Assembly: GCF_006337105.1 (NCBI RefSeq) | Contig: NZ_CP040871.1 | Span: 1,550,001 to 1,614,000, forward strand | DNA: 64,000 nt | DNA from: Thermomonas aquatica | GTDB lineage: Bacteria; Pseudomonadota; Gammaproteobacteria; Xanthomonadales; Xanthomonadaceae | Direction: 5' to 3' | Shown: one piece after another, positions 40,723 to 60,495 of the stretch | Numbering within the stretch: position 1 is the stretch's first letter | Layout of the letters: each line of letters opens with the position of its first letter | Made by a program: the position numbers and the translations under genes | The notes under the pieces: generated by a model | What the model was told of the DNA's origin: nothing | The model's input: only the letters and a program-made list of their open reading frames with translations | Database searches by the model: none

Positions 40723-40742
40723 TGATGGTGGGCCCACCATCA
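40723..40742. repeat. perfect 20-bp palindrome near the island edge
   Basis: TGATGGTGGG is followed by its exact reverse complement. It lies 115 bases upstream of the minus-strand exported protein gene, in the 387-bp intergenic stretch (40609-40995) where base composition changes. Outside this palindrome and the operator at 40957-40978 I see no gene in that stretch. Confidence 0.6.
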
Positions 40743-40956: not shown

Positions 40957-40978
40957 TGGATACACACGCGTGTATCCA
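40957..40978. promoter_or_regulatory. operator-like inverted repeat upstream of the RHH gene
   Basis: TGGATACAC-ACGC-GTGTATCCA has 9-bp perfect arms. It ends 17 bases before the ribbon-helix-helix gene and covers its expected -35 region, which fits binding by the gene's own product. The binding itself is inferred. Confidence 0.65.
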
Positions 40979-40983
40979 TTGGC

Positions 40984-40989
40984 TATGAT
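40984..40989 (+). promoter_or_regulatory. -10 element (TATGAT) of the RHH gene
   Basis: TATGAT ends 6 bases before the ATG at 40996. A start of transcription 6-7 bases downstream of a -10 box would fall on or next to that ATG, which suggests a leaderless message. The -35 region overlaps the inverted repeat at 40957-40978 and is not strong, as expected for an activated or repressed promoter. Confidence 0.45.
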
Positions 40990-40995
40990 CCCAGC

Positions 40996-41223
40996 ATGGC
41001 TATGAAGGACGTCGGACTCCGAATCCGTGTCGAGCGCGAGCTCCGGGACGCCTTTCGTAGCGCGTGTGCGGCGGAGAATCGGGACGCTTCCGAAGTGCTG
41101 CGCGAGTTCATGCGGTCATTCGCTGAACAGCGGCACGCAGGTAAACAAGCAAGTCTCTTCGCCCTGCCAGGGCGGGAGACAACAAGAGGCAGACCATCGT
41201 CTGGGGCTGTTAAGAGCAAGTAG
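40996..41223 (+). CDS. small ribbon-helix-helix regulator of the restriction island
   Basis: A 75-residue protein with the ribbon-helix-helix layout: a strand DVGLRIRVERE followed by helices LRDAFRSACAAENRDASEVLREFMRSFAEQ. The C-terminus (SLFALPGRETTRGRPSS) is basic and likely disordered. It is the first gene of the AT-richer island and lies behind its own operator-like repeat. By position it may control the methyltransferase operon that starts 82 bases further on, like controller proteins of R-M systems. Confidence 0.75.
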   Translation: MAMKDVGLRIRVERELRDAFRSACAAENRDASEVLREFMRSFAEQRHAGKQASLFALPGRETTRGRPSSGAVKSK

Positions 41224-41305
41224 GGGTGGATATGGTCAGGTGCATTGACTCGCGTATTTACGAGTGGGGTCTTGTTGCTCGGAACGCTCAAGCGAGGAAG
41301 ACAAC

Positions 41306-42400
41306 ATGACGTTCCGCTACATCGGGTCGAAGTCAAGGCTTATCGATCAGATCAGCGCCTACATGGGGCACCCTACGAAGGGTGCCTTCTTTGTGGATGC
41401 CTTCTGCGGCACCGGAGCAGTCGCTGAAGCCGCCGCAGAGCTCGGTTGGAACGTTCGCATCAACGACAACCTGCTTTCTGCAGTGATCTCTGCGGGAGCC
41501 CGGCTTGTTAGCCACGAACAAGCGGCCTTCAAGAAGCTGGGTGGTTATTCCAAAGCCATCGGCAAGATCAACGCCGCCAAGCCTAAACACGGCTTTATGT
41601 GGCGCGAGTACAGCCCCGCATCGCTTGACTCCTGCGGCATCGAGCGGCGCTACTTCACCGAAGAGAATGCGGCCCGAATCGATGCTATGCGAGCCCTGAT
41701 CGCCGATTGGAGCGAGGCTGGCACCATCGACGAGGTGGAAGAGCGTTTACTGATTGCAGACCTCTTTGGGGCTTTGAACCGGGTGGCCAATATTGCAGGC
41801 ACCTTTGGCTGCTTCCTCTCCAAGTGGACTAGCCAGTCTCAGGACAAGATCGCCATGCGTTGCCGTGAGCTTAAAACCAACGGTGTGCGCGTGGAAGCCA
41901 CCGTGGGCGATGTGTTTGAGGTGCCCAACAGTGCTCAAGACCTCGTGTACTTAGACCCTCCGTACACCAAGCGCCAATATGCCAGCTACTACCACATCCT
42001 TGAAACGGTGGCCCTAGGCGATGAGCCAGAGGTCGAGGGCGTTGCGGGCCTGCGGCCTTGGAAAGATCGGGCTTCGGACTTCTGCTACAAGACTCGTGCA
42101 CTCAAAACGCTCTCATGCCTGGTGCAGAGCCTGAAGGCTGAGAGGGTGCTCTTGTCGTACAGCAGTGAAGGGCACATCTGCATGCAGGACATGAAGGCCG
42201 AACTTTCGAAGATCGGCAAGTCCACCATGCGCCCTTTGGGCGCCATCGGTCGCTATCGACCCAACAAGGTGGCCAGCAGTACCGCTTCTGATGTGAGCGA
42301 ATTCTTGATAGTGGTGGAGCGGTCCATAGCGCAGCTTCCAAAGCCCGAAACCAAGACCCTCAAGACTATCCAACCCGTCTTTGTGGAAAGCTATGCATGA
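41306..42400 (+). CDS. D12-class DNA adenine methyltransferase
   Basis: A 364-residue enzyme of the Dam-like D12 (alpha) class. It begins MTFRYIGSKSRLIDQI, which matches the family start Y-x-GSK, continues with the SAM motif FVDAFCGTGAVAEAAAELG (near residue 28-45) and the catalytic LVYLDPPYTKRQYASYYHILET (DPPY near 216). The TRD lies between. It is the first of two methyltransferases here; the ATG at 41306 is preceded by GAGGAAG. The stop overlaps the next ATG (ATGA). Confidence 0.92.
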   Translation: MTFRYIGSKSRLIDQISAYMGHPTKGAFFVDAFCGTGAVAEAAAELGWNVRINDNLLSAVISAGARLVSHEQAAFKKLGGYSKAIGKINAAKPKHGFMWREYSPASLDSCGIERRYFTEENAARIDAMRALIADWSEAGTIDEVEERLLIADLFGALNRVANIAGTFGCFLSKWTSQSQDKIAMRCRELKTNGVRVEATVGDVFEVPNSAQDLVYLDPPYTKRQYASYYHILETVALGDEPEVEGVAGLRPWKDRASDFCYKTRALKTLSCLVQSLKAERVLLSYSSEGHICMQDMKAELSKIGKSTMRPLGAIGRYRPNKVASSTASDVSEFLIVVERSIAQLPKPETKTLKTIQPVFVESYA

Positions 42401-44628
42401 GTGCTCCACGGCCCATTGAAGCAGAGTACTTAGCACCGGCAGAGGCGGCCCTGACTAGGGCAGTTGGTGGTAGGTGTGGGCCCGCCGGCTTTGAATTTCG
42501 ACTTCAAGTATTAGAGGCCGTTTCGGCGCGGTTCGGTGGGTTTGACTTAGTGTCTTTTCATATAGCTTTTGGTGTTCAAAGCAAGAAGCCTGCAGCTGAG
42601 CTCTTGGAACTGGCTGCGCCTGTAGCAAGTGCCATCGAAAGATCGCCTATCCATCACGCGCTGGCACTGAGCGCATTGGCACGCGAGGCCCTGCGTGAGC
42701 AGGATCGAAAGAACACGGGTGCGTATCACACGGATTTTCGCCTCGCTACGCGTTTGGCACAGCTTGCCGCGCCCAAACTCAACCACAAGAGCAAGGTGAT
42801 TGATCCAGCGAGCGGCGCGGGAATTTTGTTGGCAGCCCTAACTCATGCGGTGTGTGGTCTGGATCGAGCGAAGGCTGCGCACTGGCTCGCTCATGGTGTG
42901 TGCGCGGCGGACTTATCGGCCAATTCGCTTCGCGCGGCCTTGTTGAGCCTGGCATCCTTCACCGACGATCTAGAAGCCCTCAAAGCGATGAGAGCCCGCT
43001 GGCATTGTGGCGATAGCCTGATGGCTGATCATAAGGTCTGGGCAGCAATGGCTCCGGATGGCTTTGATGCAGTGATCGGTAATCCGCCTTGGGAGAAGGT
43101 CAAGCTCTCACGGCACGAATTCTTGAAGTCTTCAGGTGCGAAGCGCCACTACGGAGCCGAGATTCGCGGGTTGGATGAAGATCGGTTTGCCACCCAGCGC
43201 GATGAGGTCTCCGACTACTCGCGGCGATTGCTGGCGCGCTATCCCGATCTGGGCAATGGAGAGCCCGATCTCTATATCGCTTTTACAGACCTCTTTTTTG
43301 ATCTGTGCAAAGGGCAAGGTGTCGTGGCAGCACTCATCCCAGGTGGGCTCATCCGCTCGCAAGGGACACAAGCCATGCGTCGGAAGATTTTTGAGGCGAC
43401 CCAAAGCGTATCGCTCTCGATCATTGATAACCGTGCCAGGTTCTTTGCTATCGATACACGGTTCAAGTTCCTTGCGATGGCTCTCGTGAAGGCAGGCCAC
43501 GGAAGGAGCAAGCGAGAGCCCATAAAGCTCTTGCACGAGCGCGGCACTTCCACAGGTTTGGAAATCACGGGCACGGCCACCATCGGCCGTGCGGCACTGG
43601 CGGCCATTCGAGACGACTTGAGCCTCCCTGAAGTTCGAAGCATTGCGGAGTGGAAGCTCTTTTCCAAGATTGCAGAAGCAGGCACCTCGTGGGAGGAGCC
43701 TGGTTGCGGCTGGACTCCGAAGTTCTGTCGCGAAGTTGATATGACGAAGGAGCGTCCCAAATTCCTGGGCCGTGCCATCCGTGGAGCACTGCCTTTAATT
43801 GAAGGTCGCATGGTGCAGGCTCACCGTTTTGGCGTGAAAGGTCACGTGTCGGGCACTGGCCGCAGTGCTCTGTGGAAGGCCTTCCCCATCGGTGGCTCAC
43901 GTATCTCGCCGCAATTTTGGATTCGCTCGTCGGACGTGCCTCGTGCCAATCAGCACCGAACAGGCATGCTGCGGGTGGGTTTCTGCGACATCGCGGGCCA
44001 GACCAACGAACGCTCGCTCATGGCGACCGTGATTCCTGCGGGTGTGGTCTGTGGCAACAAGGTACCCACGATCCTCTTTCCTGAGGACTCGTCAGAAGAG
44101 CGACTGCTAGTATGGGCGGCCATTGCAAATAGCTTTGCTTTTGACTGGATGCTCAGGCGTGTGCTCACCACTACGGTGAACTACTTTCTGCTGCAAAGCG
44201 TGCCGCTGCCGAAGGTGACAAAAGACGGCTTACCATGGAAAAAACTGGTGAGTGTCACTCGTGAATTGCAGGCGCTCGATCATGCAGGTTCCAGCCGTAA
44301 AACCCAGGCGCGCATGGCCCAACTTCGTGCTGAGATCGATGCAGAAGTAGCTGTTGCATATGGACTCGACATTAGTGACGTAGAGCTGATTCTCCAAGAT
44401 TTTCCGATTTTGGATCGAGGTCAGACCGCTTTGCCTGGCGAAAGTAAGTCCACGATCACCCGAGACAGTGTTTTGACTGCTGTGGCAAAACGCATATCGA
44501 GTCGGGGTGCAGTTTGGTCGCGCCGTGCGGCAGAGGCTCTTGCGTTGGGGGCAATGGCGTATGTGCCCTCGGAACTTGCTCTCGGGAGCGATGAAATTGA
44601 GGAAGAAGGAGCCCGAGTTCATGGGTAG
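42397..44628 (+). CDS. N6-adenine DNA methyltransferase of the Eco57I/TaqI type
   Basis: A 743-residue methyltransferase. GAYHTDFRLATRLAQL precedes the SAM motif VIDPASGAGILLAALTHAV (near residue 135), and the catalytic motif is VIGNPPWEKVKLSRHEFL (near 228). The C-terminal half from about 440 resembles TaqI-type target-recognition regions (PRANQHRTGMLRVGFCDIAGQTNERSL, LLVWAAIANSFAFDWMLRRV). No nuclease motif was seen at the N-terminus, so it is probably a stand-alone MTase and not a type IIG enzyme. Overlaps neighbours on both sides. Confidence 0.88.
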   Translation: MSAPRPIEAEYLAPAEAALTRAVGGRCGPAGFEFRLQVLEAVSARFGGFDLVSFHIAFGVQSKKPAAELLELAAPVASAIERSPIHHALALSALAREALREQDRKNTGAYHTDFRLATRLAQLAAPKLNHKSKVIDPASGAGILLAALTHAVCGLDRAKAAHWLAHGVCAADLSANSLRAALLSLASFTDDLEALKAMRARWHCGDSLMADHKVWAAMAPDGFDAVIGNPPWEKVKLSRHEFLKSSGAKRHYGAEIRGLDEDRFATQRDEVSDYSRRLLARYPDLGNGEPDLYIAFTDLFFDLCKGQGVVAALIPGGLIRSQGTQAMRRKIFEATQSVSLSIIDNRARFFAIDTRFKFLAMALVKAGHGRSKREPIKLLHERGTSTGLEITGTATIGRAALAAIRDDLSLPEVRSIAEWKLFSKIAEAGTSWEEPGCGWTPKFCREVDMTKERPKFLGRAIRGALPLIEGRMVQAHRFGVKGHVSGTGRSALWKAFPIGGSRISPQFWIRSSDVPRANQHRTGMLRVGFCDIAGQTNERSLMATVIPAGVVCGNKVPTILFPEDSSEERLLVWAAIANSFAFDWMLRRVLTTTVNYFLLQSVPLPKVTKDGLPWKKLVSVTRELQALDHAGSSRKTQARMAQLRAEIDAEVAVAYGLDISDVELILQDFPILDRGQTALPGESKSTITRDSVLTAVAKRISSRGAVWSRRAAEALALGAMAYVPSELALGSDEIEEEGARVHG

Positions 44629-45193
44629 CAAAGCGAATGACGTTGCGCGATTCCTCTACAAAGAGATCGTTGATGGGGATCGGAGAAAGGCTAAAGCGGA
44701 GTCGAACGACACCGCGTCTGGTGGGGGTGCAAGAGACTTCAGATTTCCATATGAAGAGGTATTGCCTATCGTTGAGAAGATCTTCCCGACCAAGATCATC
44801 AGACGCGGAAAAACTGCGCATCAAGGTACGTTTTTCTGGAACGAACCGGGAGTGGAGCAGACACTTTCAAGGACGGCTCAGTTCATGTCTCCTACAAAGT
44901 CGCGGCCACGCGAGGGTTGGATTTCCCAGGTCCCGAAATTCTCATGCTTTGATACTGAGCGAATGCCCTTGGGCAGTCCGACGAATCGAGTCTTGCTACT
45001 GCTAATACAACTTTACGATGATACGGTGTGGCCCTTCTTTGCCGAAGAAAGGACTCTACGCGTCAAGGGCGCGTGGGACCCGGTGGTTGCTCAAGAACTG
45101 TTGGATTGCCTAGACGCCAAGCGTGCAGTCAACCGGGCTGTGATTGGCTACCGAGACTTCACTACCGCTGGCAGGTTCTGCAATGGAAACTGA
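44621..45193 (+). CDS. unknown protein between methyltransferase and McrB-like genes
   Basis: A 190-residue protein of unknown family. N-terminal helices (GSKANDVARFLYKEIVDGDRRKA) are followed by a conserved-looking core (FRFPYEEVLPIVEKIFPTKIIRRGKTAHQGTFFWNEPG) and a C-terminal part with CLDAKRAVNRAVIGYRDF. The ATG at 44621 has AAGGAG nine bases upstream; an ATG at 44591 inside the preceding gene lacks good spacing. It overlaps both neighbours. Position between the methylase and the McrB-like motor suggests a recognition or adaptor subunit. Confidence 0.7.
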   Translation: MGSKANDVARFLYKEIVDGDRRKAKAESNDTASGGGARDFRFPYEEVLPIVEKIFPTKIIRRGKTAHQGTFFWNEPGVEQTLSRTAQFMSPTKSRPREGWISQVPKFSCFDTERMPLGSPTNRVLLLLIQLYDDTVWPFFAEERTLRVKGAWDPVVAQELLDCLDAKRAVNRAVIGYRDFTTAGRFCNGN

Positions 45194-46319
45194 TGACTGC
45201 AAGTTGGCTTTAAAACTGCTGGCCCGCTCTCGGAACGTTTTGATTTCGGGTCCTCCTGGGACGGGAAAATCGAAGCTGTTGGCCGAGGTGGCGTTGGCTT
45301 TTGAAACAGCCTTTGGCATTGCTCCCGCAGGTGGTGCGCCTAAGCTCAATCCAGTGGGTGGCATCCCGATTCCGCCTGCCGCAGGCGGTGCCGTCAAGGA
45401 TATTCCTGCGCCTACGAAGACGAATCGCAAGGTCTTTCGGACGGTCTTTCACCAGAACTCCAAATACCGAGACTTTTTGTCTGGCATCACGCCGGCGGTC
45501 AACAAGGCGGCAGGCGCCCCGGACTTCACCATCGTGAAGGGTACGCTCTACCGTGCGAGTGAGCACGCCAAGGCAGACGGTGGCGCGGCCCTATTGATCA
45601 TCGACGAGATCAACCGAGGCCCCGCTGTGCAGGTCTTCGGCGGAGCCATCGTGGCCATGGAGTCTGACAAGCGCTTGGCCGTAGATGGCTCCAAACGGTC
45701 CGAAACCCAGTTTTTTGAAATGCTCGACCCCGCGACGGGCGATGTGATCGAGTACGCCTTGCCGCATGACCTGTACATCCTGGCCGCCATGAACCAAGCC
45801 GATGCGTCGGTGGAGCCCTTGGATGTGGCTTTCTTGCGTCGCTGGGAGCCGCTAAGACTTGAACCCGATGAGAGGGCGTTGAGGGACTTCTATGGTCTGG
45901 GGGCCAAGGGTGCCAACACCTTGCCCGATCCCCTCGTCAGCGTCACTGATGCCTTGGAGGCGTCGGCGAGGGCTTGGGCGGTCGTCAACGGACAAATCTC
46001 GCTAGGCCGAGGCCCCGAGTTCCAGATCGGTCATGGCGTCTTGATGTCGGATGTGAAGCCTCAAACGCTGCCTCTGCCTGAGGCGCTGGGTACGTTGTGC
46101 GTGGGGTGGGCCAAAATGCGGGCCCACATTGAAGAGGTCTTCTTCGGAGATACACGAGGCATTGCCGCAACCCTCAATGCTTTGGATGGCCCCGCCTTCA
46201 ACCCGTTCCAACTCTCTGAGACAACTTTCGCGGACGATTTGCGGTTCAGGCTTGAAGGCCCCACCAACTTCAACGAAGACAACATCTACCCCGCCCTGAG
46301 GGCCTTTGCGAAGGGGTAG
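45183..46319 (+). CDS. McrB-like AAA+ NTPase
   Basis: A 378-residue AAA+ protein with Walker A LISGPPGTGKSKLL (near residue 20-32), Walker B LLIIDEINRGPAVQVFGGAI (near 135-150), and the McrB-type signature LAAMNQADASVEPLDVAFLRRW (near 201-222), close to the MNTAD motif of GTP-using McrB. FHQNSKYRDFLSGITP fits the MoxR/McrB insert. It lacks the N-terminal methyl-DNA-binding domain of E. coli McrB. With the McrC-like gene next door it would form the nuclease motor. Starts inside the previous gene. Confidence 0.88.
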   Translation: METDDCKLALKLLARSRNVLISGPPGTGKSKLLAEVALAFETAFGIAPAGGAPKLNPVGGIPIPPAAGGAVKDIPAPTKTNRKVFRTVFHQNSKYRDFLSGITPAVNKAAGAPDFTIVKGTLYRASEHAKADGGAALLIIDEINRGPAVQVFGGAIVAMESDKRLAVDGSKRSETQFFEMLDPATGDVIEYALPHDLYILAAMNQADASVEPLDVAFLRRWEPLRLEPDERALRDFYGLGAKGANTLPDPLVSVTDALEASARAWAVVNGQISLGRGPEFQIGHGVLMSDVKPQTLPLPEALGTLCVGWAKMRAHIEEVFFGDTRGIAATLNALDGPAFNPFQLSETTFADDLRFRLEGPTNFNEDNIYPALRAFAKG

Positions 46320-46322
46320 TGT

Positions 46323-47627
46323 GTGGCGCATACCCGAACACGGTTATCGCTTGTCGAGTACGGATCACCCGTTGATCTGAGTCGAGAAATTGGCGCGGCG
46401 ATTGGTGTGGATCGCACGAAAGCCAACAGCCTCCTGATTGAGGCTGGCAACCGTGCCGCATCGAACTTGGGGCTCAAATACAATCCCATTAGTGTTGATG
46501 CCATTGGCGCACGAGCCATCGACTTTGCTGGCCTCATCCGCTTAGCCCCAGCGCTTGAACTGGAAGTCGCACCCAAGTTCTTGGGTCTTGATGACGCTGA
46601 CGCCACCTGGCGAGAGGACTTCTTCTTTCTCTCCACGCTCTCACGGCATGGGCGGCTTCTTGCGACCGAGCGCTTATCGGCCTCAGGTGGTGCACCGCGC
46701 GACCTCTCCACGTTGGTGGCCCGATCCATCACGAGCATGTACGAGGCCAGAAAACGCCGCCCTCTGCGCAGCTACCGCCGGGTGAGGGAGGCAGACTTCT
46801 TCATTGATGGCGATCCAGATCCTGTGGATCTCATCTTTCCATCACCCGATGGTTTTGAGCAGGAGGTCATCCGCTTTGATCGGCGCAATGGCTGGAATGC
46901 AGACATCGTGGCGGCTGCCAAGGGGCTTCTGCCCGAGGTGAGCGACCCATCAGCCGCAGGCTCCTTGGTGCGGCTGATCGAAGACCTTTCACCACAAAGC
47001 GGCCCTGCCAACCGTCGTAAGTCGCTCCCTGCGAGGCACAGGGCGTGGAAGCCATTGCACGAGCTTTCCATCGATGTGCTTGGAGGACTGGGTCTCAACT
47101 ATAAGCAGGGTCAAGCGCACGCGCCTGGTTACCTCGTTTCGACCTGGCGGGTGTGGGAGGACTTATTAACGGTAGCGGCTCGCCTCGGGTTCGGACGTTC
47201 TGCAGTGGTGCCTCAAAAGGGCTTCACGCTGGGCACTAGGGTCAAGTCGACCACGGGTGCTGTGCGTAACGTAACGGTCGTTCCCGACTGCGTGATCGAA
47301 GCCGAGGGCGCCAGACCCCGGTTGCTTCTCGACGCCAAGTACAAGGGGCACATAGAGAAGGGGCAGCTCCGCATCTCGGAGGCTGACATGTATGAGGCAC
47401 TAGCCTTTTCTAGGGCCACAGGTTGCAACTTGGTGGTTCTTGCCTATCCGGCCCAGCTAGGTGATGTACCGCTACCTGTGGGTGCGTGCACCGAGTTTGA
47501 AAAAGTGCAGGTAGACGCTGTAAAGATCGTGGGCATCCAAATCGAAACTCGTCACATCTCCAGGACAGGCGCTTTGAAGGCCTTTGCTGGAAATTTGGCA
47601 AGTAGCATCGCTGAGATAATTCGGTAG
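46323..47627 (+). CDS. McrC-like nuclease subunit
   Basis: A 434-residue protein. An N-terminal region with LELEVAPKFLGLDDADATWREDFFFLSTLSRHGRLLATERL and a long helical middle resembles McrC. The C-terminus carries a PD-(D/E)xK core: VVPDCVIEAEGARPRLLLDAKYKG, with PD near residue 322, and the D-x-K pair near 337. McrC stimulates and cuts for McrB. The GTG start lies three bases after the McrB-like stop. The nuclease residues are intact. Confidence 0.85.
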   Translation: MAHTRTRLSLVEYGSPVDLSREIGAAIGVDRTKANSLLIEAGNRAASNLGLKYNPISVDAIGARAIDFAGLIRLAPALELEVAPKFLGLDDADATWREDFFFLSTLSRHGRLLATERLSASGGAPRDLSTLVARSITSMYEARKRRPLRSYRRVREADFFIDGDPDPVDLIFPSPDGFEQEVIRFDRRNGWNADIVAAAKGLLPEVSDPSAAGSLVRLIEDLSPQSGPANRRKSLPARHRAWKPLHELSIDVLGGLGLNYKQGQAHAPGYLVSTWRVWEDLLTVAARLGFGRSAVVPQKGFTLGTRVKSTTGAVRNVTVVPDCVIEAEGARPRLLLDAKYKGHIEKGQLRISEADMYEALAFSRATGCNLVVLAYPAQLGDVPLPVGACTEFEKVQVDAVKIVGIQIETRHISRTGALKAFAGNLASSIAEIIR

Positions 47628-48064: not shown

Positions 48065-49519
48065 ATGACTCTCGATACGAAAGGGTCGGCTGCACTCAAG
48101 AAGGAACGAAAACCACAGTTTGATTTTACGAGCAACTTTGATCCTGAAAGCAGAGATACCGCCACAATCAAGGAACTTCTAGCGGAGATTAACCAAGAAC
48201 GTAATGATGCCGATGGAACAACCTTTGATTTGAAAAGTCTTGGCACAGTACTTCGGCTCCTAAGCACCATCACGGGCAGAAGCTACCGCAGCATCACCGA
48301 AAGACACCCGCTTTCGACGCTGAAAACGATCAAGCTGTTGCACAAGGAATGCCGGCACATTGACGCACACCTGATTAGGCTGCTCGAACTTCCCAAAGGT
48401 GACTCACACAGCATTTTGGATTTCTTTACCATGGCGTCTTCCCCAGAAGGGGAAGATGTAAAGCGTCAGATCAGCCGCATTATTGCGAGACTTGAAAAGG
48501 AAATAGATCAAGTCGAAATCGATCAGATCAATGCCATTAGTGACCCCGGCAAGCTCCGAGAGCAATACCGGCGCGACACGAACGAGGCCGTGGACGACAT
48601 CCTGCTGACCCATATCCACATTGAAGACGAGCTACTGAAGGATGCCGACAGGTACCTGACCGATCAGTCCCGACAATTCCTTACGTCGATCAGCCCTCTC
48701 AAGCGCGAATCACGGGCGCATGTCGCCACCTGCGTCTATCTCAAGGTTCTCGACTACGTCCACCGTCTCCACTTCGAATTGGCCACGCAGCTGTCGATAC
48801 CGCATGATCGCCCCATCTCAAACATGAAGATTAGATTCGAGAAGATATGCGCCGATATCTCGTCGAATTTGGATCGCCAAATCCTGACGGACACCAACTT
48901 CCTTTCCATCCACGAGATGATGGATTTCTGCATAAAGTACATGAGCCCTCTCAGCGAAATCGTAACGAATGCTGTGGGTTTTGTTTACGAAAACCGAGCG
49001 TTCAAACAGGATATTCCTCGCGCCCACCTCATCATTCAACTTTATCTTTACCAAGCCAAGTTGCCAGCAACGCCTGAATCAAAGCCCATCGGGGTCGTTC
49101 ATGCTGCTGCCGCATTCGCTTCCGTTTTTCACCAGCGCATCAACAAGGCGAATCTGGTGAAGAAGTCGGTCAAGTACAGCCCGAAGATCTCCGATCCACA
49201 GCGACAACTGGATCAATTCGTGAAGGGAGAGACGCGGCAAATTCCACACACGGTGCAGTACCTCTACACGGAACGAATGAAGTGGTATCTCTTCGCGCTT
49301 CTCGAAAGAAAGGACACGACCGACTCCCACAAGTCACTGCAACTAGCGCAGTCCGAACTGACGAGGGACATATTCCTTTCCCTCTCTCCTGTGCTGATCG
49401 TCGAACAGATCAACGCGTACCGTAAACGAATCGTACAGGCAGCGAATGACTTTATCGTCGCTCATGATAAGCAACACATCCGATACGAGAAGATTCGTAA
49501 CTACCAGTCAAATGCATAG
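48065..49519 (+). CDS. unknown all-helical protein
   Basis: A 484-residue protein with no recognised domain. The sequence is mostly helical and charged (DTATIKELLAEINQERND, ISRIIARLEKEIDQVEIDQINA), with a repeated ELLKDADRYL-like pattern, and lacks nuclease, NTPase or membrane motifs. The ATG at 48065 follows a strong GGGGGAG ribosome site. It is in an AT-rich setting between the McrBC-like module and the mobilization region and could be an accessory or defence gene. No closer call is possible. Confidence 0.7.
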   Translation: MTLDTKGSAALKKERKPQFDFTSNFDPESRDTATIKELLAEINQERNDADGTTFDLKSLGTVLRLLSTITGRSYRSITERHPLSTLKTIKLLHKECRHIDAHLIRLLELPKGDSHSILDFFTMASSPEGEDVKRQISRIIARLEKEIDQVEIDQINAISDPGKLREQYRRDTNEAVDDILLTHIHIEDELLKDADRYLTDQSRQFLTSISPLKRESRAHVATCVYLKVLDYVHRLHFELATQLSIPHDRPISNMKIRFEKICADISSNLDRQILTDTNFLSIHEMMDFCIKYMSPLSEIVTNAVGFVYENRAFKQDIPRAHLIIQLYLYQAKLPATPESKPIGVVHAAAAFASVFHQRINKANLVKKSVKYSPKISDPQRQLDQFVKGETRQIPHTVQYLYTERMKWYLFALLERKDTTDSHKSLQLAQSELTRDIFLSLSPVLIVEQINAYRKRIVQAANDFIVAHDKQHIRYEKIRNYQSNA

Positions 49520-49747: not shown

Positions 49748-50473
49748 ATGGCAAGCTTCCATCACTGCATCAAGAGCGGCAAGAAGGGCACCGCGTGCGG
49801 ACACGCCGCCTACATCGAGCGGCGCGGCCGTTACAAGACGCGCGGCGAAGATTTGATACATTCCGCCTACGGCAACATGCCTGCATGGGCCGCGAACAAT
49901 CCGGGTCGGTTTTGGCGTATGGCCGACAAGCACGAGCGCGCCAATGGCGCAGCGTACCGCGAACATGAAATTGCGCTGCCAAACGAGCTGCACGTCGATC
50001 AGCTTATCGCTCTGACCGAACGTACGGTGCGTGAGCTGATAGGGAACAAGCCATACCAGTACGCCATTCACGCGCCTGACGGCTCCTTAGCGGCGATCCC
50101 GAACCCGCATCTGCATCTGATGTATTCGGATCGTCTGCCGGATGGAATCGAACGCGAGCCGGACCGGACGTTTTCGCGCTTCAATGCGAAGCAGCCAGAA
50201 CTTGGTGGTTGCCGAAAGGACAGTGGCGGACTATCCCCGCTGGAGCTCCGGGCTGGCGTGATCGACGCGCGCAAAACTATCGCCCATTTGCAGAATGAGG
50301 CTTTGGCGGAGGGCGGCCACGATGCCCGCGTTGATCACCGCAGCTTGAGCGAGCAAGGCCGCCAGCGCCGCCCTGAGCGTCACTTGGGGCCCGCCCGCGT
50401 ACGGGGTATGTCCACTAAAGAGAAGGCCATCTACGCCGCCCACCGCGGTGGCGAGCCGGGATTGGGACACTGA
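49748..50473 (+). CDS. MobA/MobL-family relaxase
   Basis: A 241-residue relaxase that would nick the adjacent oriT and pilot the strand. Visible: AYIERRGRYKTRGEDLIHSAYGNMPAWAANNPGRFWRMADKHERANGAAYREHEIALPNEL with the catalytic Tyr region, the metal-binding IPNPHLHLMYSDRLPDG (His triad) and GGCRKDSGG. It is short compared with full MobA proteins (which add primase or other domains), but the relaxase domain seems complete. It lies behind an oriT of the matching type. Confidence 0.87.
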   Translation: MASFHHCIKSGKKGTACGHAAYIERRGRYKTRGEDLIHSAYGNMPAWAANNPGRFWRMADKHERANGAAYREHEIALPNELHVDQLIALTERTVRELIGNKPYQYAIHAPDGSLAAIPNPHLHLMYSDRLPDGIEREPDRTFSRFNAKQPELGGCRKDSGGLSPLELRAGVIDARKTIAHLQNEALAEGGHDARVDHRSLSEQGRQRRPERHLGPARVRGMSTKEKAIYAAHRGGEPGLGH

Positions 50474-53246: not shown

Positions 53247-53447
53247 CTACGCCGCAGGATTGCCAGCCGTGACAGCACCTGCTGCTGCGCCCTCCGCATC
53301 GGGTTCGGCCTTTGCGGGCACTTTCTCGATCACGACCTTCAGCTGCGGGCGCGAGGCCAGCGTGTACAGACCAAACGCGGCCAGTCCATAGACGACCGCG
53401 CCACCGAGCACTTTCAACACGCTTGTTCTCCTTGGGGTTGTTGTCAT
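53247..53447 (-). CDS. small single-pass membrane protein
   Basis: A 66-residue protein: basic N-terminus (TTTPRRTSVLK), a membrane helix VLGGAVVYGLAAFGLYTL, then a periplasmic Ala-rich tail. It overlaps the RDF-like gene upstream by four bases. Unknown function in the conjugative-element group. Confidence 0.6.
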   Translation of the reverse strand: MTTTPRRTSVLKVLGGAVVYGLAAFGLYTLASRPQLKVVIEKVPAKAEPDAEGAAAGAVTAGNPAA

Positions 53448-54337
53448 GCACCACCCATGCGGGCGGCTTTATGTTCCAGACGACTTCGCAGGCTGGATGC
53501 CGGCGGTGCGTGGCCCGCAGCACCAGCGTGCGGTGCTTCTTCCTGGGGATAGAACTCCTCGACAACCGCCGACACGTCCTCCCCCAACTCCTCGAACGCG
53601 CCGTTGGCGAAGCCCAGTCGCGCCGCTTCATCGAGCGCAGCCTGATCGAGGCCCGCCTCCTTCCTAGCCCCGTCCAAGCGCCGGGCCTCGGTAATCGCCT
53701 CTTCCAGCGTCATGCCCGAACGGATCACCAGATCGACGTAGAAGATCGGTGCACGGTAGCTTTGGGTCGTAGACTTGCCACGCAGCTTCAGTTCCAGCGG
53801 CAGGCAGGCGAGCAACCCACCGGAGACCGCTTGGAAGTACTGCAGGCGGGCCGCCAGCGTGCGGATCGTGTTGAACGACGTGGTGCGTAGCACAAAGGTG
53901 CCAGTCTCATCCTCGTCTCCGATGCGCACGTTGAAGCGGGCGTACGGTTTGCACTGACCTTCAGCGAATCGGCATGTATCCGACCCTGGGCACGGCAAGG
54001 TCTCTATGCCGTCCTGGCCTGATCGCCTGCAACTCTCGCCGTTGCCAACGCATAGCGGCCGACCGGTGGAGCGGTCAAACAAGTTGTAGTCAGCACGCAG
54101 GTTCAGACTCGGATCATTGAACAGCAACTGGACCGGCAAGCTCCGTAGCTTGCCGCCGACCTGCTGACGCAAAGCTTCGTCGAGCGGATGGAGCAGCCAG
54201 CCCTCGCGGTTCTGGACTTGGGTGGTCAGGGTGAATTGATCGTCCTTCTCGGGCAGGCGCGTGCCGTTGCGTTCGATGACGCGCCCGATCGAGATGCGAC
54301 CCACGACGGGTGGGGTGATGGCAAATCCTTTGAGCAT
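53444..54337 (-). CDS. RDF-like 'hydrolase or metal-binding' element protein
   Basis: A 297-residue protein. N-terminal GFAITPPVVGRISIGRVIERNGTRLPEKDDQFTLTTQVQ and a cysteine-rich middle (CVGNGESCRR..., CPGSDTCRF, CKPY) that could bind zinc match the recombination-directionality-factor-like proteins of integrative elements, which are annotated as hydrolase or metal-binding. The C-terminus is disordered. It lies between YqaJ exonuclease and small membrane protein genes. Assignment as RDF-like is by family resemblance; the name hydrolase is unproved. Confidence 0.7.
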   Translation of the reverse strand: MLKGFAITPPVVGRISIGRVIERNGTRLPEKDDQFTLTTQVQNREGWLLHPLDEALRQQVGGKLRSLPVQLLFNDPSLNLRADYNLFDRSTGRPLCVGNGESCRRSGQDGIETLPCPGSDTCRFAEGQCKPYARFNVRIGDEDETGTFVLRTTSFNTIRTLAARLQYFQAVSGGLLACLPLELKLRGKSTTQSYRAPIFYVDLVIRSGMTLEEAITEARRLDGARKEAGLDQAALDEAARLGFANGAFEELGEDVSAVVEEFYPQEEAPHAGAAGHAPPASSLRSRLEHKAARMGGA

Positions 54338-54347
54338 GGAACCTCTC

Positions 54348-55325
54348 CTAGGGTTGATCGGCTCCGGCCGAGATGAGGAACCGGCGGCTGCCGGGTTTTG
54401 GGACGATGTACTTGGCCACCAGATCCGGGTGATCCAAAGCCAAGCGCTTTGTGTCCAGGCTGGTGCCGTCCTGAGCCCGCTTGTAGGTCACTTCGCCGGT
54501 GGCGAAGACTGCTCGGGCGGCATCGCCCATGGCTTGCTGCAGGCTCTGCTTGAGCTGTTCGGCTTCCTTGCCGCGTGTCTCGAGCTCGTTCCGCAGGGCC
54601 ACCAACTCGGCGAAGGTGTCCGACAGCACCCGGTCATCGCAGAAATCGAGGGTGTTGCCACCACCGGGGTACAACTGGCGCAGCGCTTTGCCCGATGACT
54701 CGCTGCCATCGGCCGGCGGCGCGATGTCAGTCTCGACGTACTGCCAGAACCTGGCTTCCAACACCATCAACCTCGCGATAACTTCTTGGTCGCGTTCGAT
54801 ACGGTGGATCTCCATCCGTTGGCCGCACAGCAGCACCGCCACGTCGGCGGCGTCCTGGTTGGTTACTGCCAACTGATGCTGGACCTGCAGTTGAATGTGT
54901 TCCGGCACACCGTGCTGCCAGAGCTTCGACCCCCATTCCCCGGCCGTCTTGCACTCGAGGATCTGCACGGCCGGTGTGCCCACGACCTCACGGTCGATGT
55001 TCGCCAACAAGTAAGGGAAGGTCGGGTGCTGCAGGACCGCATTGATCTTGCGGACCTTTCGACCGGTCAACTGCGTGTAGGCCACGGCCACGTAGGGTTC
55101 CAACAACGTGCCCCAGTAGCGCGGATCGTCCATGCCAGGCGGTGCGGTTTCCGTTGGCGTCCGGCCCGTCTTTTCCATCCACAGTTCAAGCGGACTCTTG
55201 TACGGGCACAGGCCCACGGCGGCAGCGGCATCCGAACTGCCGATCCCGCCTTGGCGCACGGACAACCACTGGTGTCGGTCGAGCGTGCGCGTGTCGACCA
55301 GCCGCAAGGCGGCGTTCTTCTTCAT
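54348..55325 (-). CDS. YqaJ-type viral/element recombinase exonuclease
   Basis: A 325-residue exonuclease of the YqaJ/lambda-exo type. IGSSDAAAAVGLCPYKSPLELWMEKTG is the N-terminal signature, the active site is DREVVGTPAVQILECKTAGEWGSKLWQ with the D-ExK residues, and IQLQVQHQLAVTNQDAADVAVLL follows. The C-terminal helical part may bind a partner. It would resect ends for recombination in the element. The ATG at 55325 follows a hairpin at 55344-55368. Confidence 0.87.
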   Translation of the reverse strand: MKKNAALRLVDTRTLDRHQWLSVRQGGIGSSDAAAAVGLCPYKSPLELWMEKTGRTPTETAPPGMDDPRYWGTLLEPYVAVAYTQLTGRKVRKINAVLQHPTFPYLLANIDREVVGTPAVQILECKTAGEWGSKLWQHGVPEHIQLQVQHQLAVTNQDAADVAVLLCGQRMEIHRIERDQEVIARLMVLEARFWQYVETDIAPPADGSESSGKALRQLYPGGGNTLDFCDDRVLSDTFAELVALRNELETRGKEAEQLKQSLQQAMGDAARAVFATGEVTYKRAQDGTSLDTKRLALDHPDLVAKYIVPKPGSRRFLISAGADQP

Positions 55326-55343
55326 GCGGTTTCTCCAAATGGA

Positions 55344-55368
55344 AACGCCCGGCACAGGGCCGGGCGTT
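55344..55368. repeat. hairpin upstream of the YqaJ gene
   Basis: AACGCCCGGC-5 nt-GCCGGGCGTT lies between two minus-strand genes, 18 bases before the YqaJ start. No T-run is present. It is similar in position to the hairpin at 56379-56408 before the DUF932 gene. Confidence 0.55.
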
Positions 55369-55390
55369 GCGGGAACAACTAGGGTTGGGA

Positions 55391-56347
55391 TCAGGTGGTC
55401 AGCTGGACCAGCTCGTCCCATGCGCGTTGCTTGAACTGCGCGCCCTGTCCGAACCAAGCCGCCTCACGCCGATGATCATCACTGCGCGCGCGTCGATGGT
55501 GGTCGACGTACTCGGTGACGCTGTTGAGCAAGCCCCACGCCGTGCCGCGGCTGGACGCCAACTGCGCGCCACGGCCGCCACCGTCGTAAAGGGCTCGTAC
55601 CGAACGCATTGCCTGCTCGTTGACTACCGGAGCCTGGCCGGGCTGCCCAGGATAGGTCAGCATTCGACGCAGCAACCCATCGACCGAGTCCGGATCCACC
55701 GGGCATGCCACCAGATCCTTCATCTTCGACACGAACCGATTCCACGGCGCAACAGTGATTCCAAGCTGCTGCTTCACCGCATCGGGATTGAACTCGGAGC
55801 GATGCGGCACCTTCACCGCGCCACGGTTGTCACCCAAGGCGATTTGCAGGGTGTTGTTGCAGACCACCCGCACTGACGTGAACTGGGCGGTGGTGGCCAA
55901 GGATCCATCGCAGGCGGTTGCCAGCAGCAGATAGCCATTCACTTGGTCCTTGCCCTTGAGCGTGGTGCTCTGGCCCGTGCGCGCGAGCGCCCAGAACTTC
56001 CTGCCTTCCTTGAGGACGCCTGCCGTCTCAAGCTCGAAGCCGGCGTGCTCGGTCAGGTCGCGGTAGAACTCCAGTACTTCCTCCGGCTGCACGACCTGGA
56101 AACGCTTGGAAACCACCGACAGCGGGCGCTTGGTGTCGGAGCGGTAGAGCACCTTCTGCTCCGGGAAAGTATGGATCGCCCCGACCGTGTGGTTGCCGGT
56201 GATGTAGCGAACCTCGGACTCTTCGATCATCCAGTCCATGCCGGCCTGTCGCTTCCAGATCTCGATGGGCTGCGGGGTAGCGATTTTGTTGCCAAGGCCA
56301 TGCCAAGGCTTGTCGCCGGCATAGGCCATCGTTTCGACCAAGTGCAT
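55391..56347 (-). CDS. DUF932 (phage/plasmid-like) protein
   Basis: A 318-residue protein of the DUF932 family found in plasmids and integrative elements: AGDKPWHGLGNKI, WMIEESEVRYIT, YLLLATACDGSLATTAQFTSVRVVCNNTLQIAL and LYDGGGRGAQLASSRGTAWGLLNSVTEYVDHHRRA are family blocks. The role is unknown, possibly linked to DNA processing. Located directly upstream of the YqaJ gene. Confidence 0.87.
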   Translation of the reverse strand: MHLVETMAYAGDKPWHGLGNKIATPQPIEIWKRQAGMDWMIEESEVRYITGNHTVGAIHTFPEQKVLYRSDTKRPLSVVSKRFQVVQPEEVLEFYRDLTEHAGFELETAGVLKEGRKFWALARTGQSTTLKGKDQVNGYLLLATACDGSLATTAQFTSVRVVCNNTLQIALGDNRGAVKVPHRSEFNPDAVKQQLGITVAPWNRFVSKMKDLVACPVDPDSVDGLLRRMLTYPGQPGQAPVVNEQAMRSVRALYDGGGRGAQLASSRGTAWGLLNSVTEYVDHHRRARSDDHRREAAWFGQGAQFKQRAWDELVQLTT

Positions 56348-56751: not shown

Positions 56752-58890
56752 TCACCCGTGGAAGCGTCCTTTGAAATAGGCGTTCATTTCGCTCAAGGGG
56801 ATTTCTTGTGAGGAGTTGCCACTTCGTGCATAGAATTTCTCAACGGCCTGGCCGTTCTTATCCTTCACTTGCAGAACCAACGGAGCGTGGGCAGGTTGGA
56901 TATCGACCTGACAAACGTCTCTTTCTTCGAGGGCCGAGAATCGAACTTTGACCCGGGTTGCTGCATACGTCTCGCCGAATGCACCGTTAAGCAGGTTCTT
57001 CAGGTGTAACTCGAACTTATCGCGGTCGCAATGGCCAAGCGCGGCGTAATCGTGGGAAAGCCCGAGCACCTGCCCGTCATCGGCGACGCCGATGAGCAAG
57101 GTGCCTCCATTGGAATTCCCGAAAGCGGCCACTGTTTTGAGGATCACATCCTCTAACTTCCGGTTGGCGACACCTTCCTTATAGTCCCACCGCAGCGATG
57201 ATTTGAATTCCAGTTCGTCGCTCTCGCCCTCCGCAATCAGGTCCTCGATCGATGCTGCCTGATCTGATTCGCCTGTCTCCGTAATGCCGGCGAGGTAAGC
57301 CGTCAAGCTTGACGCCAACATCTTCCGACGCTCGCGCAGGAACTCTTCATAATTCTCCAGCTGCCAGAGGCACTCATCCTCTGGAATGCACTGCAATTTG
57401 AGTGCTTTGGGAAAATCCCTGCGGACGGCAGTCAGGTAATCAAGCGCTGTCGTGGCGGACTTGGTCCGATTGGCGACCTGGGTCAGGATGGCGCGGTTGG
57501 TGAGTTCCTGCGCCAGCGCATACCTAACGCGATTGTCCTTCCCATACCCGGCCGCCTTGAGGCGAGAGAACGGGAAGATATGGTCGTTCTCGAGCTGATA
57601 CTTCGCCCCCATGTTCTTGTGCAGCCCGACCCCTGTTGTTAAGCAGACTGCGCCGCGGCTCTTGAGATACCAGCGCATCATTGAGAACAACGGATGCTGG
57701 ATCGCACGGCCCTCGAATTCATGGGGCTGAATTTCCAGCCTACCTTCGTCCTCTTCGATCACCCGTAAAAGGTTGTCGAATGGATGCTCGGATTCCTTCA
57801 ATGCACGCAGATCGCGATCGAGCTTCTGTGGCAACTGACTTACGTAGCGTGCGCGGACCTGGCTGTAGTAGAACCACTTCACCATCTTGTTGATTTCGGA
57901 CTCGGTGGGGTGGGTGCCCTGCTTGTCGAAGCAGTACACAATCATGGGCACCAACGCATACACCGAACTGATCTCGTTGGTGTGATCCACGAATGCCCTG
58001 GACCGAAGCAAATTCACTACGTAGTCCAGCACCTGCTCATCCAGGCGCTTCCATGCCGCTTGCAGTGGCTGCTTGTTCTCCACTCCATGGAGCTTTTTCA
58101 TTTCCGAACCGATGCGGTGCACGCAGCCCAGCAGTACGTAGACGATAAAGTCCAGCTTGAATGCGAATCCCGCGTCCTTGAGCTTGTCCAGCTTGGCCTT
58201 GAACAGATCACGCGCTTGCGGCCAGTAGCCAGAGATCTGGGCTAGCGCGAGCTCCGCGTCTGTCAGGGCGACGCCGCTGGCGTTTACCTTGTAGAAGATA
58301 TCGATCGCTTCCCGGATATTCGCTTTGATCGGAATGGTCTGCTCCGGAAAGTCCCGTCCGAGAATGGCCTCAATGGCGCTTGTGTTGTCGTCGATCCGGT
58401 CATCACGCTCGCGATCGACAGTCTGGCCTTTGGCCTCCAGTTCACGCACGACATCCTTGGCTCGAATTTTCTTCTGGAAGATTTGAGTGATGTCCTGCCA
58501 GAGCGGATCGTTCTGCATGCGCGACTTGACGAAATACGACAACTCCAAGGACTCTAGGTTGACGTAGAGCTCGCGGGTGTCATTGGTGATCTCTGGCAGC
58601 GTGTAGTACGGCGGAACGGTCCCGCGAATCAGCATGTAAAGCGTGGTAATGCGCTGCTGACCATCTAGGAGAAGGCGCACAGCCCCCTGTTTCGCGTCGT
58701 ATTTGTGAGGCCCCTTCAGCTCCGGCGGACTGGCCGTTTCCCAGGTCAGCATGGTCCCTGTCGGATACTGCTTGATTAGAGAGTCGATCAATTGCTTAGC
58801 ATCGTCTCGCTTCCACACGTATTCGCGTTGAAACGCCGGCACGAACAGCTGCTTTTCGTCGATCTTGTCGAGAATCATTGAAATCTTCAT
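56752..58890 (-). CDS. GmrSD-type (DUF262) nuclease fused to a Schlafen/AlbA_2 domain
   Basis: A 712-residue protein. The N-terminal DUF262 part has VPAFQREYVWKRDDAKQLIDSLIKQYPTG and the signature LLLDGQQRITTLYML (DGQQR at 76-80). A DUF1524-like HNH segment follows (YQLENDHIFPFSRLKAAGYG near 430, ELTNRAILTQVANRTKS). The last 150 residues (ESDELEFKSSLRWDYKEG...AAFGNSNGGTLLIGVADDGQVLGL) form an AlbA_2/Schlafen-like domain. GmrSD cuts modified phage DNA; a fused AlbA_2 domain is unusual. Probably a type IV-like defence protein. Confidence 0.85.
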   Translation of the reverse strand: MKISMILDKIDEKQLFVPAFQREYVWKRDDAKQLIDSLIKQYPTGTMLTWETASPPELKGPHKYDAKQGAVRLLLDGQQRITTLYMLIRGTVPPYYTLPEITNDTRELYVNLESLELSYFVKSRMQNDPLWQDITQIFQKKIRAKDVVRELEAKGQTVDRERDDRIDDNTSAIEAILGRDFPEQTIPIKANIREAIDIFYKVNASGVALTDAELALAQISGYWPQARDLFKAKLDKLKDAGFAFKLDFIVYVLLGCVHRIGSEMKKLHGVENKQPLQAAWKRLDEQVLDYVVNLLRSRAFVDHTNEISSVYALVPMIVYCFDKQGTHPTESEINKMVKWFYYSQVRARYVSQLPQKLDRDLRALKESEHPFDNLLRVIEEDEGRLEIQPHEFEGRAIQHPLFSMMRWYLKSRGAVCLTTGVGLHKNMGAKYQLENDHIFPFSRLKAAGYGKDNRVRYALAQELTNRAILTQVANRTKSATTALDYLTAVRRDFPKALKLQCIPEDECLWQLENYEEFLRERRKMLASSLTAYLAGITETGESDQAASIEDLIAEGESDELEFKSSLRWDYKEGVANRKLEDVILKTVAAFGNSNGGTLLIGVADDGQVLGLSHDYAALGHCDRDKFELHLKNLLNGAFGETYAATRVKVRFSALEERDVCQVDIQPAHAPLVLQVKDKNGQAVEKFYARSGNSSQEIPLSEMNAYFKGRFHG

Positions 58891-58912: not shown

Positions 58913-59485
58913 CTAGGGAGGATCTCGCCGCTGACTTGCCCACGTATTCAAGTACAACTCCTGCTGATATGTCTCTACAGCTCCAGGCCTCACCTCCCTG
59001 ACCCTAGCGATTGCGTCCGCAGCCGTCGATGCAGTTTCGCAATCTAACAGGAGCATTGCAGCCACAGTTCCGGCCCGCCCGAGTCCATCCTTGCAATGCA
59101 CCAGCACTCCACCCCCCGCACGTAACGTGTTAACCAAGCCAGGGCGTGTTGTCCTCCACAGTCTCTCGAAGGAACGGTCTGGAGCGCACTGATCAATGAT
59201 GGGCAGGTGATGCCAACGCAACCCAAGTTCATTTGCGATACGGGGAAGACCCTCTACACCCAGACCTGTGATTTCGTGCGCTTCGATCAACGAAACAACA
59301 TCATTCGCTCCCCACTCGCGGATGGTTTCGAGATCCATGGCGAGATCCCGATCCCACGCCCCCGTCATTGCGTCGGACTGCTTCTTGCCCGGGCAGAACG
59401 TGATACCGATCTTCCCATCGCCGACCTGTAGCGTGGCTATTAGGATTGGATGGGCCAGACTCGTTCTGGCGACTGGCTTCGTCAC
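58913..59485 (-). CDS. dual-specificity/tyrosine phosphatase of the CDKN3-like type
   Basis: A 190-residue Cys-based phosphatase. The P-loop is VLVHCKDGLGRAGTVAAMLLLD with C131 and R137, and the general-acid Asp may be in LPIIDQCAPDRSFERLW, as in CDKN3-like phosphatases. Both catalytic residues are present. The ATG at 59485 overlaps the stop of the ADP-ribosylglycohydrolase gene, so both are made together. Substrate unknown: phosphoprotein, or a phosphorylated nucleotide or RNA end are options. Confidence 0.85.
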   Translation of the reverse strand: MTKPVARTSLAHPILIATLQVGDGKIGITFCPGKKQSDAMTGAWDRDLAMDLETIREWGANDVVSLIEAHEITGLGVEGLPRIANELGLRWHHLPIIDQCAPDRSFERLWRTTRPGLVNTLRAGGGVLVHCKDGLGRAGTVAAMLLLDCETASTAADAIARVREVRPGAVETYQQELYLNTWASQRRDPP

Positions 59486-60495
59486 CGGCGTATCGAGTGA
59501 TGCGAGATCAGGCCATTCAATAAGGGCGCAAGAATGTCATTGCCTCTCAAGCCCTCTCGCCAACTGCGCGGAATTCCGCTGAGGCCGTACAGCGCCCCCG
59601 CAACCCCCCCTGCTATCGCCGCGGTGGTGTCGGTGTCGTTTCCAAGTGACACTGCGCGCCGCACACAGGCATCAAACGTGGATGTCTCCAAAACTGCAGC
59701 CCGAGCCGACCATAGCGAATCCACGACGTACCCGCTGCCTTGCACGCACTCAGCATTCGCTGGGTCCAACACCTGTTCCATCTCTTGGGGGTCGAGCTCG
59801 AGAGGAGGAGCAATTAACCTCAGTCGACTAGTGGCCTCGTCCCAAGGGTGAGAGCCGCCTGCCAGGACGCAACGGACCCAGAGGCAATACAGCGCACAAG
59901 CAATTCTGGAGCGCATGTGCCCGTGCGTGGGCAACGACTGCTCCGAACTCAACATGACTAGTTCGTGGTCGCTACCTTGGTGCCAAAGGGCCAATGGCAA
60001 CACCCGCATCAATGACCCATTCCCGTTGTCCCGCTCTCCAGCGGGGCCGGCTTGTGCAGGCGCGACTCCAGCCGCCAAGCGCCCTAATGCCCGGCTAGTC
60101 TGGATACCCACATCGAAGACTTTTCCATCGACGGCGCAGAAGCCTTGGCTCATCCAGCGAAGCAGGCCTTTGGAGAAGTGCTCCAAGTCCAAACCCTCTC
60201 GAACCAAGAGGCTGTCCAGCAACACCAGCGCCTGGGCGCCATCGTCGCTCCAGGTGCCAGGCAGAACCGAGCGGTGCGAGCGATGAAACCCGTTTGGCGG
60301 TGTGAACTCGATCAAAGCTTCCGACGGGATTGACTCTGCGGCATGAAACTCATAGGGCACGCCAAGTGCGTCGCCGATCAGCAACCCAGTTAGGCCTCCC
60401 GCGATACGTTCAAAGCTCAGGGGAGGCTGGGCTTGTTCATTCGTGATCGGCATGGTCGGCGTATTTAACTCCATAGCGCAACACTTCTTGGACAT
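59482..60495 (-). CDS. ADP-ribosylglycohydrolase (DraG/ARH-like)
   Basis: A 337-residue ADP-ribosyl hydrolase. The metal-binding GTWSDDGAQALVLLDSLL (family T-x-DD), the ERDNGNGSLMRVLPLAL block and the second metal motif SLGNDTDTTAAIAGGVAGALYGL match the ARH family. It would remove ADP-ribose from protein or nucleic acid. Start at 60495 is the longest option; ATGs at 60474 and a little further on would also work. It is coupled to a phosphatase gene. Confidence 0.87.
   Translation of the reverse strand: MSKKCCAMELNTPTMPITNEQAQPPLSFERIAGGLTGLLIGDALGVPYEFHAAESIPSEALIEFTPPNGFHRSHRSVLPGTWSDDGAQALVLLDSLLVREGLDLEHFSKGLLRWMSQGFCAVDGKVFDVGIQTSRALGRLAAGVAPAQAGPAGERDNGNGSLMRVLPLALWHQGSDHELVMLSSEQSLPTHGHMRSRIACALYCLWVRCVLAGGSHPWDEATSRLRLIAPPLELDPQEMEQVLDPANAECVQGSGYVVDSLWSARAAVLETSTFDACVRRAVSLGNDTDTTAAIAGGVAGALYGLSGIPRSWREGLRGNDILAPLLNGLISHHSIRR

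Follow-up and report, generated by a model that had tools for sequence, protein, structure and literature searches.

In a 64,000-nucleotide stretch of the Thermomonas aquatica genome (positions 1,550,001 to 1,614,000 of contig NZ_CP040871.1, assembly GCF_006337105.1; hereafter the window), we describe a compact cassette of five genes, all on the + strand at 41306-47627, whose middle gene is swapped among cassettes separately from the rest. The cassette is probably a mobile restriction-modification (RM) system made of McrBC-type parts: two adenine methyltransferases (MTases) would mark DNA, a stand-alone protein of predicted B3 fold would read the unmodified target, and an McrB/McrC-like pair would cut DNA lacking the mark.

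A conserved cassette of five genes

The first two genes encode N6-adenine DNA methyltransferases, one of the D12 class (41306..42400, 364 amino acids (aa); PF02086, E = 4.1e-27, 96 bits against a cut-off of 22) and one of the Eco57I class (42397..44628, 743 aa; PF07669, E = 4.9e-9, 36.9 bits against 25.3). The latter also matches TIGR02987 (Alw26I/Eco31I/Esp3I adenine MTase) at 111.9 bits, below the cut-off of 353.5. They are followed by the B3-fold protein (44621..45193, 190 aa), which predicted fold, synteny and exchange point to as a target-recognition subunit, by a short McrB-like AAA+ NTPase with Walker A, Walker B and NxxD motifs (45183..46319, 378 aa; AAA_5, 42.2 bits against 22), and by a McrC-like PD-(D/E)xK nuclease with a GTG start (46323..47627, 434 aa; PF10117, 41.6 bits against 23.9). 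Three of the four junctions overlap, by 4, 8 and 11 bases, and 3 bases separate the McrB and McrC genes. This gene set with its mostly overlapping junctions is the one that an earlier, sequence-only reading of the window had described.

Related loci were gathered mostly with a profile of the 190-aa protein, which gave 40 loci in a species-genome collection, 5 records among viral contigs and 5 among plasmids. Four plasmid loci were taken in and three E. coli loci were added through a search with the cassette DNA, for a total of 53 loci including the window; the order of the remaining genes was not selected for. All five genes lie in the same order on one strand at 51 of the 53, the other two being cut by contig ends before McrC. 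The cassette is intact at 47 loci, and all six non-intact ones (L005, L021, L023, L032, L034 and L036) retain the 190-aa gene. Both MTase genes occur at 53/53 loci, with the Eco57I-class gene broken in L021 and L023; the pairing of two adenine MTases of different classes, thought uncommon from the sequence alone, is therefore the rule within this cassette family. At 90% identity of the 190-aa protein the loci fall into 41 clusters, 36 of them with an intact cassette, and their hosts, judged by organism names, include Pseudomonadota, Actinomycetota, Bacillota and Bacteroidota.

The characteristic motifs are kept in all 47 intact loci: DPPY and RY(I/L)GSK in the D12 MTase (motif I in 46/47), NPPW in the Eco57I-class MTase, GGGARD in the B3 protein, Walker A, Walker B and NxxD in McrB, and PD...DAK in McrC. 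PF10117 (Pfam McrBC) is the nuclease family in 17/17 cassette McrC members. This membership could suggest a type IV use, with the McrBC-like pair cutting modified foreign DNA and the MTases serving something else, and modified bases are in principle within reach of a B3-like reader. We regard such a use as improbable: both MTase genes stand beside the McrBC-like pair at every locus, and the restriction-enzyme B3 domains that match the 190-aa protein, those of BfiI, UbaLAI and EcoRII, read unmodified sites, as does that of LlaJI.R1 in the part of its description consulted. A second McrC gene (PF10117, 325 bits) is found elsewhere in the window's own genome, at C1:1355734-1356708 (L053).

Because most loci had come through the 190-aa protein, we also searched in reverse with other cassette genes. 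Among plasmids, the Eco57I-class MTase found six records with at least 42.9% identity over at least 93% of its length, the next falling below 33% (28 records, all listed). McrB found the same six at no less than 39.5%, others being below 36% among the matches listed (214 records). The 190-aa gene is present in all six, in five by tblastn and in the sixth by profile only; there, IS66-family genes lie between the MTase and the 190-aa gene. Among viral contigs, the MTase search gave seven records, five with the 190-aa gene and two that stop within the MTase gene or at its final bases, and the McrB search gave exactly the five carrying the 190-aa gene. These searches are small and their records overlap, and they yielded no exception: the gene, whose constant position had been proposed as a check, is present in every record not cut off before it.

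The cassette is rare: a blastn search of 5,426 E. coli genomes detected its DNA in 6. The Eco57I-class profile gave no full-length match in 368 other genomes of the same class, only two partial matches inside long open reading frames (ORFs), and the McrB profile gave none at E 1e-30 in 397 other genomes of the same phylum. Neither the B3 protein nor the Eco57I-class MTase matched annotated phages, and among 14 control genomes PF10117 matched in one only, Methanosarcina acetivorans. Two loci carry additional genes: in Stenotrophomonas, McrC is directly followed by another B3-like member of the family, with GGGARD kept, which may be a spare specificity gene (L022:8641-9228); in a Casimicrobiaceae genome bin, a 596-aa McrB-like ORF and a McrC-like ORF lie directly 3' of the cassette (L014:13040-16155).

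The B3-fold protein and the exchange of its gene

The P-loop of the McrB-like protein lies at residues 23-30, so that no recognition domain fits N-terminal of it, as the sequence-only reading had noticed; E. coli McrB is matched over residues 79-324, with a weak match at the P-loop. The idea that the 190-aa protein takes the place of the missing domain gains support from its predicted fold, B3 domains occupying rows 1-21 of the VIA structural-match lists for both of its models, and from its constant presence in the reverse searches. Sequence routes (Pfam, PADLOC, NCBIfam, PHROGs, PDB) were empty or insignificant for this protein. This would suit a regulator or an adaptor that does not read DNA; given that the fold matches are to DNA-binding domains and that the partner McrB has no reader of its own, we hold little belief in such a role. 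The models thus support a detached recognition domain of McrB that would bind DNA itself, and an isolated B3 domain has been described, in the part of the source consulted, as able to bind its own site specifically (PMC4267653).

Residues G19, D20, K23, D30, G34-D39, R41, R95 and E98 are invariant in 45/45 B3 rows. Most of them fall in the loop 17-41, whose conservation between B3 types is 0.76. Residues 57-89 are the most variable between types (0.31-0.37). In the secondary structure of the model this part includes a strand-loop-strand where the second DNA-binding arm of a B3 domain would lie, a placement that follows general B3 anatomy.

Cassettes exchange the B3 gene separately from their remaining four genes. 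When 18 close loci are compared in pairs, the identities of those four proteins correlate with each other at r 0.84-0.97, and B3 correlates with them at only 0.19-0.25. In the pair L006/L019, the D12 MTase is 93%, the Eco57I-class MTase 95%, McrB 91% and McrC 88% identical, against 56% for B3; L016/L071 show the reverse case, with B3 at 83% and the others at 74%, 75%, 81% and 70%, respectively. On the DNA level, L006 and L019 are 83-93% identical as far as the B3 gene, drop to about 50% across it and return to above 80% in McrB. This places an exchange tract, assigned to no strand, at 44620..45190 of the window; in L012/L016 the low-identity tract spans about 44200-45450.

The trees of B3 and of the other four genes disagree strongly. 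The tree of the four genes without B3 joins L012 with L016 (100/99) and L002 with L072 (100/100), and the B3 tree joins L016 with L071 (100/100) and places L006 and L002 with the window (100/99). In approximately unbiased (AU) tests, B3 data reject L012+L016 (p 3e-66), L002+L072 (p 9e-41) and L006+L019 (p 1e-34), the last pair being alike in the other genes without forming a resolved clade there; data of the other genes reject L016+L071 (p 0.016) and window+L006+L002 (p 8e-63). Four B3 types, covering 14 loci, need 7 changes on the other-gene tree against 3 on the B3 tree. Identity within and between these types is 80/80 for the D12 MTase, 80/81 for the Eco57I-class MTase, 83/83 for McrB and 78/78 for McrC, against 79/60 for B3. 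No 40-residue stretch of the four other proteins co-varies with B3 after correction for overall divergence (partial r at most 0.37 in absolute value); the highest positive value, 0.32, is at the McrB N terminus, which adjoins the exchange tract. B3 therefore behaves like an exchangeable specificity subunit, and the MTases do not change with it.

Several points weaken this account, the first on the fold and the rest on the exchange. Foldseek matches of the 190-aa protein to B3 domains are weaker than the structural matches above, with E never below 0.001. Over 33 representative loci B3 identity does follow that of the other genes (r 0.86-0.88, where the others reach 0.97-0.99 with each other), as common descent would make it do, and the 18 close loci that show uncoupling include the near copies L002 and L008. 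Choices of rows also matter: the window's own copy, L001, was left out of the 53-locus motif and order count, L008 out of the trees, and L009, L010, L013 and L020 out of the B3-type labels. The types were defined on the B3 tree, which leaves the figures for the other four genes as the only ones unaffected by this choice, and the groups for the AU tests were named after the trees had been seen. Finally, single genes, in quick trees, differ in what they say. With the D12 MTase alone, L012+L016 (99) and L002+L072 (100) form groups and L016+L071 is rejected (p 0.017). McrC recovers the same two pairs (75 and 96) and puts L016+L071 at p 0.068. The Eco57I-class MTase does not reject L016+L071 (p 0.71), nor does McrB, which already groups them (support 25). 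The results for the latter two genes are compatible with an exchange tract that reaches both neighbours of the B3 gene, without proving it.

A further difficulty concerns what an exchange would do, as one that altered the cutting site without altering the marks should be harmful. Three options follow: the sites read by the B3 types are identical or nested, B3 also guides the MTases, or the gene is exchanged for another reason, e.g. escape from inhibitors. The explanations built on these options concern the meaning of the exchange and are compatible with the RM system proposed above.

One of them, quite possible in our opinion though short of an even chance, is that the B3 types share one target site, or have targets that lie within the marked motif, exchange serving to escape phage-encoded inhibitors or to fit the partners. 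The invariant B3 residues agree with it, and the MTases then need not change; against it, the most variable part of the protein includes the likely second DNA-binding arm. A less likely explanation is a shared, HsdS-like specificity subunit, with B3 directing both MTases and the McrBC-type nuclease so that one exchange changes marking and cutting at once. In its favour are the independence of B3 types from the other genes, the rejection of all three pairs by B3 data, the lack of co-varying windows in the other four proteins, and the second B3 gene of L022. D12 and Eco57I-class MTases, however, normally have recognition regions of their own, and the good conservation of loop 17-41 between types may mean that specificity does not change. 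That the cassettes make up an RM class of this kind, where one stand-alone B3 subunit, swapped like HsdS by recombination, sets the target of a McrBC-type nuclease as well as of two unrelated adenine MTases, seems to us a shade more doubtful still.

Proposed working and genomic setting

We propose that host DNA is marked by the two adenine MTases, which are of different classes, each most likely acting on one strand of an asymmetric site; their constant pairing would fit such two-strand methylation by analogy with LlaJI, an RM system of L. lactis plasmid pNP40. The B3 protein would read the unmodified target and, by docking on McrB, bring the McrB-like NTPase ring and the McrC-like nuclease to unmodified sites, where they would cut DNA without the mark and so may defend the cell against phages.

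If so, the cassette offers a natural example of a McrBC-type motor nuclease whose likely DNA reader is encoded apart from it, by a gene that can be exchanged. Should the B3 gene re-target the system, it would offer a modular route to study site finding by McrBC-type nucleases; should it not, the exchange would suggest an arms race centred on the reader while the site stays the same. With a shared subunit, one gene swap would re-target marking and cutting together. E. coli cassettes that differ most in the B3 gene make the question of re-targeting directly testable; those of strains CFSAN051542 and KFu015 are 90-94% identical in the remaining four proteins and 61% in B3.

A small open frame upstream (40996-41223), which ends 82 bases 5' of the cassette, had been counted as a ribbon-helix-helix (RHH) member of the operon. 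It is only weakly RHH-like (Pfam RHH_10, 14.9 bits against a cut-off of 27), with PHROGs matches to an 'Arc-like repressor' (E 0.0014) and to a PHROG of unknown function (9.2e-9). We rejected it as control gene or component of the cassette, since a phmmer search (E up to 10) of small ORFs upstream of 49 other loci found no relative; the upstream stretch compared is short for a few of them, e.g. 196 bases in L024.

Between 40 and 41.5 kb of the window, G+C content drops from about 70% to about 58%, and a MobA/MobL relaxase lies 3' of the cassette (49748-50473). The cassette is therefore probably at the edge of a mobile island. Other copies lie inside transfer operons of integrative and conjugative elements (ICEs), close to a tRNA-Leu and ICE genes, or in an island next to ssrA. 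A perfect 10-base inverted repeat is located near the G+C edge, at 40723-40742. After the cassette, 48065-49519 encodes a 484-aa protein without a Pfam, NCBIfam, PADLOC or PHROG match. The same low-G+C stretch holds, on the - strand, genes for a Gp3-like recombination directionality factor, a YqaJ recombinase and DUF932 (53444-56347). Also on the - strand are a GmrSD N-terminal domain fused to a Schlafen AlbA_2 domain, possibly another defence gene (56752-58890), a dual-specificity-phosphatase-like gene overlapping an ADP-ribosylglycohydrolase gene (58913-60495), and a helicase-like protein with AAA_11 and AAA_12 (62225-63991), which adjoins a 553-aa ORF without a family (60679-62340).

Relation to known systems

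Among the systems compared, LlaJI is alike in logic. Like the cassette, it has two MTases, a McrB-related NTPase and a PD-(D/E)xK partner, and the cassette McrB profile aligns with the NTPase part of R1.LlaJI (hhalign 98.1%, E 7.6e-14). The LlaJI-like label of the sequence-only reading holds as an analogy of two MTases with McrB/McrC-type subunits; as a statement of family membership it was rejected. M1 and M2 of LlaJI are 5-methylcytosine enzymes (PF00145) and R2.LlaJI matches PF09563 (RE_LlaJI) at 3.8e-31, whereas the cassette MTases belong to the adenine classes PF02086 and PF07669 and its nuclease to PF10117 only; the cassette is therefore not a LlaJI member. In a profile comparison of the two nucleases only the PD...DAK motif aligned (3.5%). 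The specificity part of LlaJI is fused to the NTPase (PMC1459862), unlike the B3 fold of the cassette, which has a gene of its own. In the portions of the sources consulted, the N-terminal domain of H. pylori LlaJI R1 (6c5d) is a B3 recognition domain, and the two LlaJI MTases methylate the two strands of an asymmetric site (PMC1459862; PMC12707154). The cassette B3 protein would then be the counterpart of the NTPase-fused domain, as a separate, exchanged gene.

E. coli McrBC, a type IV system, shares the NTPase and nuclease families with the cassette, including Walker A, Walker B, NxxD and PD-(D/E)xK; it is not known to carry MTases. Its McrB has a fused reader of methylated cytosine, according to the consulted part of the source. 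A B3 domain reads the target in EcoRII. The same is true of CglI, NgoAVII, BfiI and UbaLAI where their descriptions were consulted, which likens them to the cassette; unlike there, it is part of a larger protein, and in CglI and NgoAVII its partners are a phospholipase D (PLD) nuclease domain and a DEAD-family ATPase. Type I RM systems provide the likeness for the exchange: a specificity subunit moving independently of M and R, as HsdS does, was encountered here too, as a likeness of behaviour with no homology.

A limited literature search found no description of the five-gene cassette, of a separate B3 subunit, of a D12 and Eco57I-class pair with a PF10117 nuclease, or of B3 exchange. LlaI and BsuMI have short McrB homologues (337 and 343 aa) in three-ORF restriction cassettes (PMC1459862), to which the 378-aa McrB and the 190-aa gene are likened by description and not by the sequence of the third gene. 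As far as the consulted part of a 2008 study goes, LlaI, BsuMI and LlaJI are grouped as McrBC-related type II systems that have paired MTases and cut unmethylated DNA (PMC2614495). The CoCoNuT census, in the portion consulted, places McrB-like GTPases with NxxD beside predicted MTases and leaves details for a later paper; neither a B3 subunit nor the five-gene cassette was found in that portion (PMC11090510). With these precedents in LlaJI, in LlaI and BsuMI, and in the MTase-associated McrB clades of CoCoNuT, the kind of system is already known, and the cassette described here links type IV-like machinery to a type II-like logic of self and non-self.

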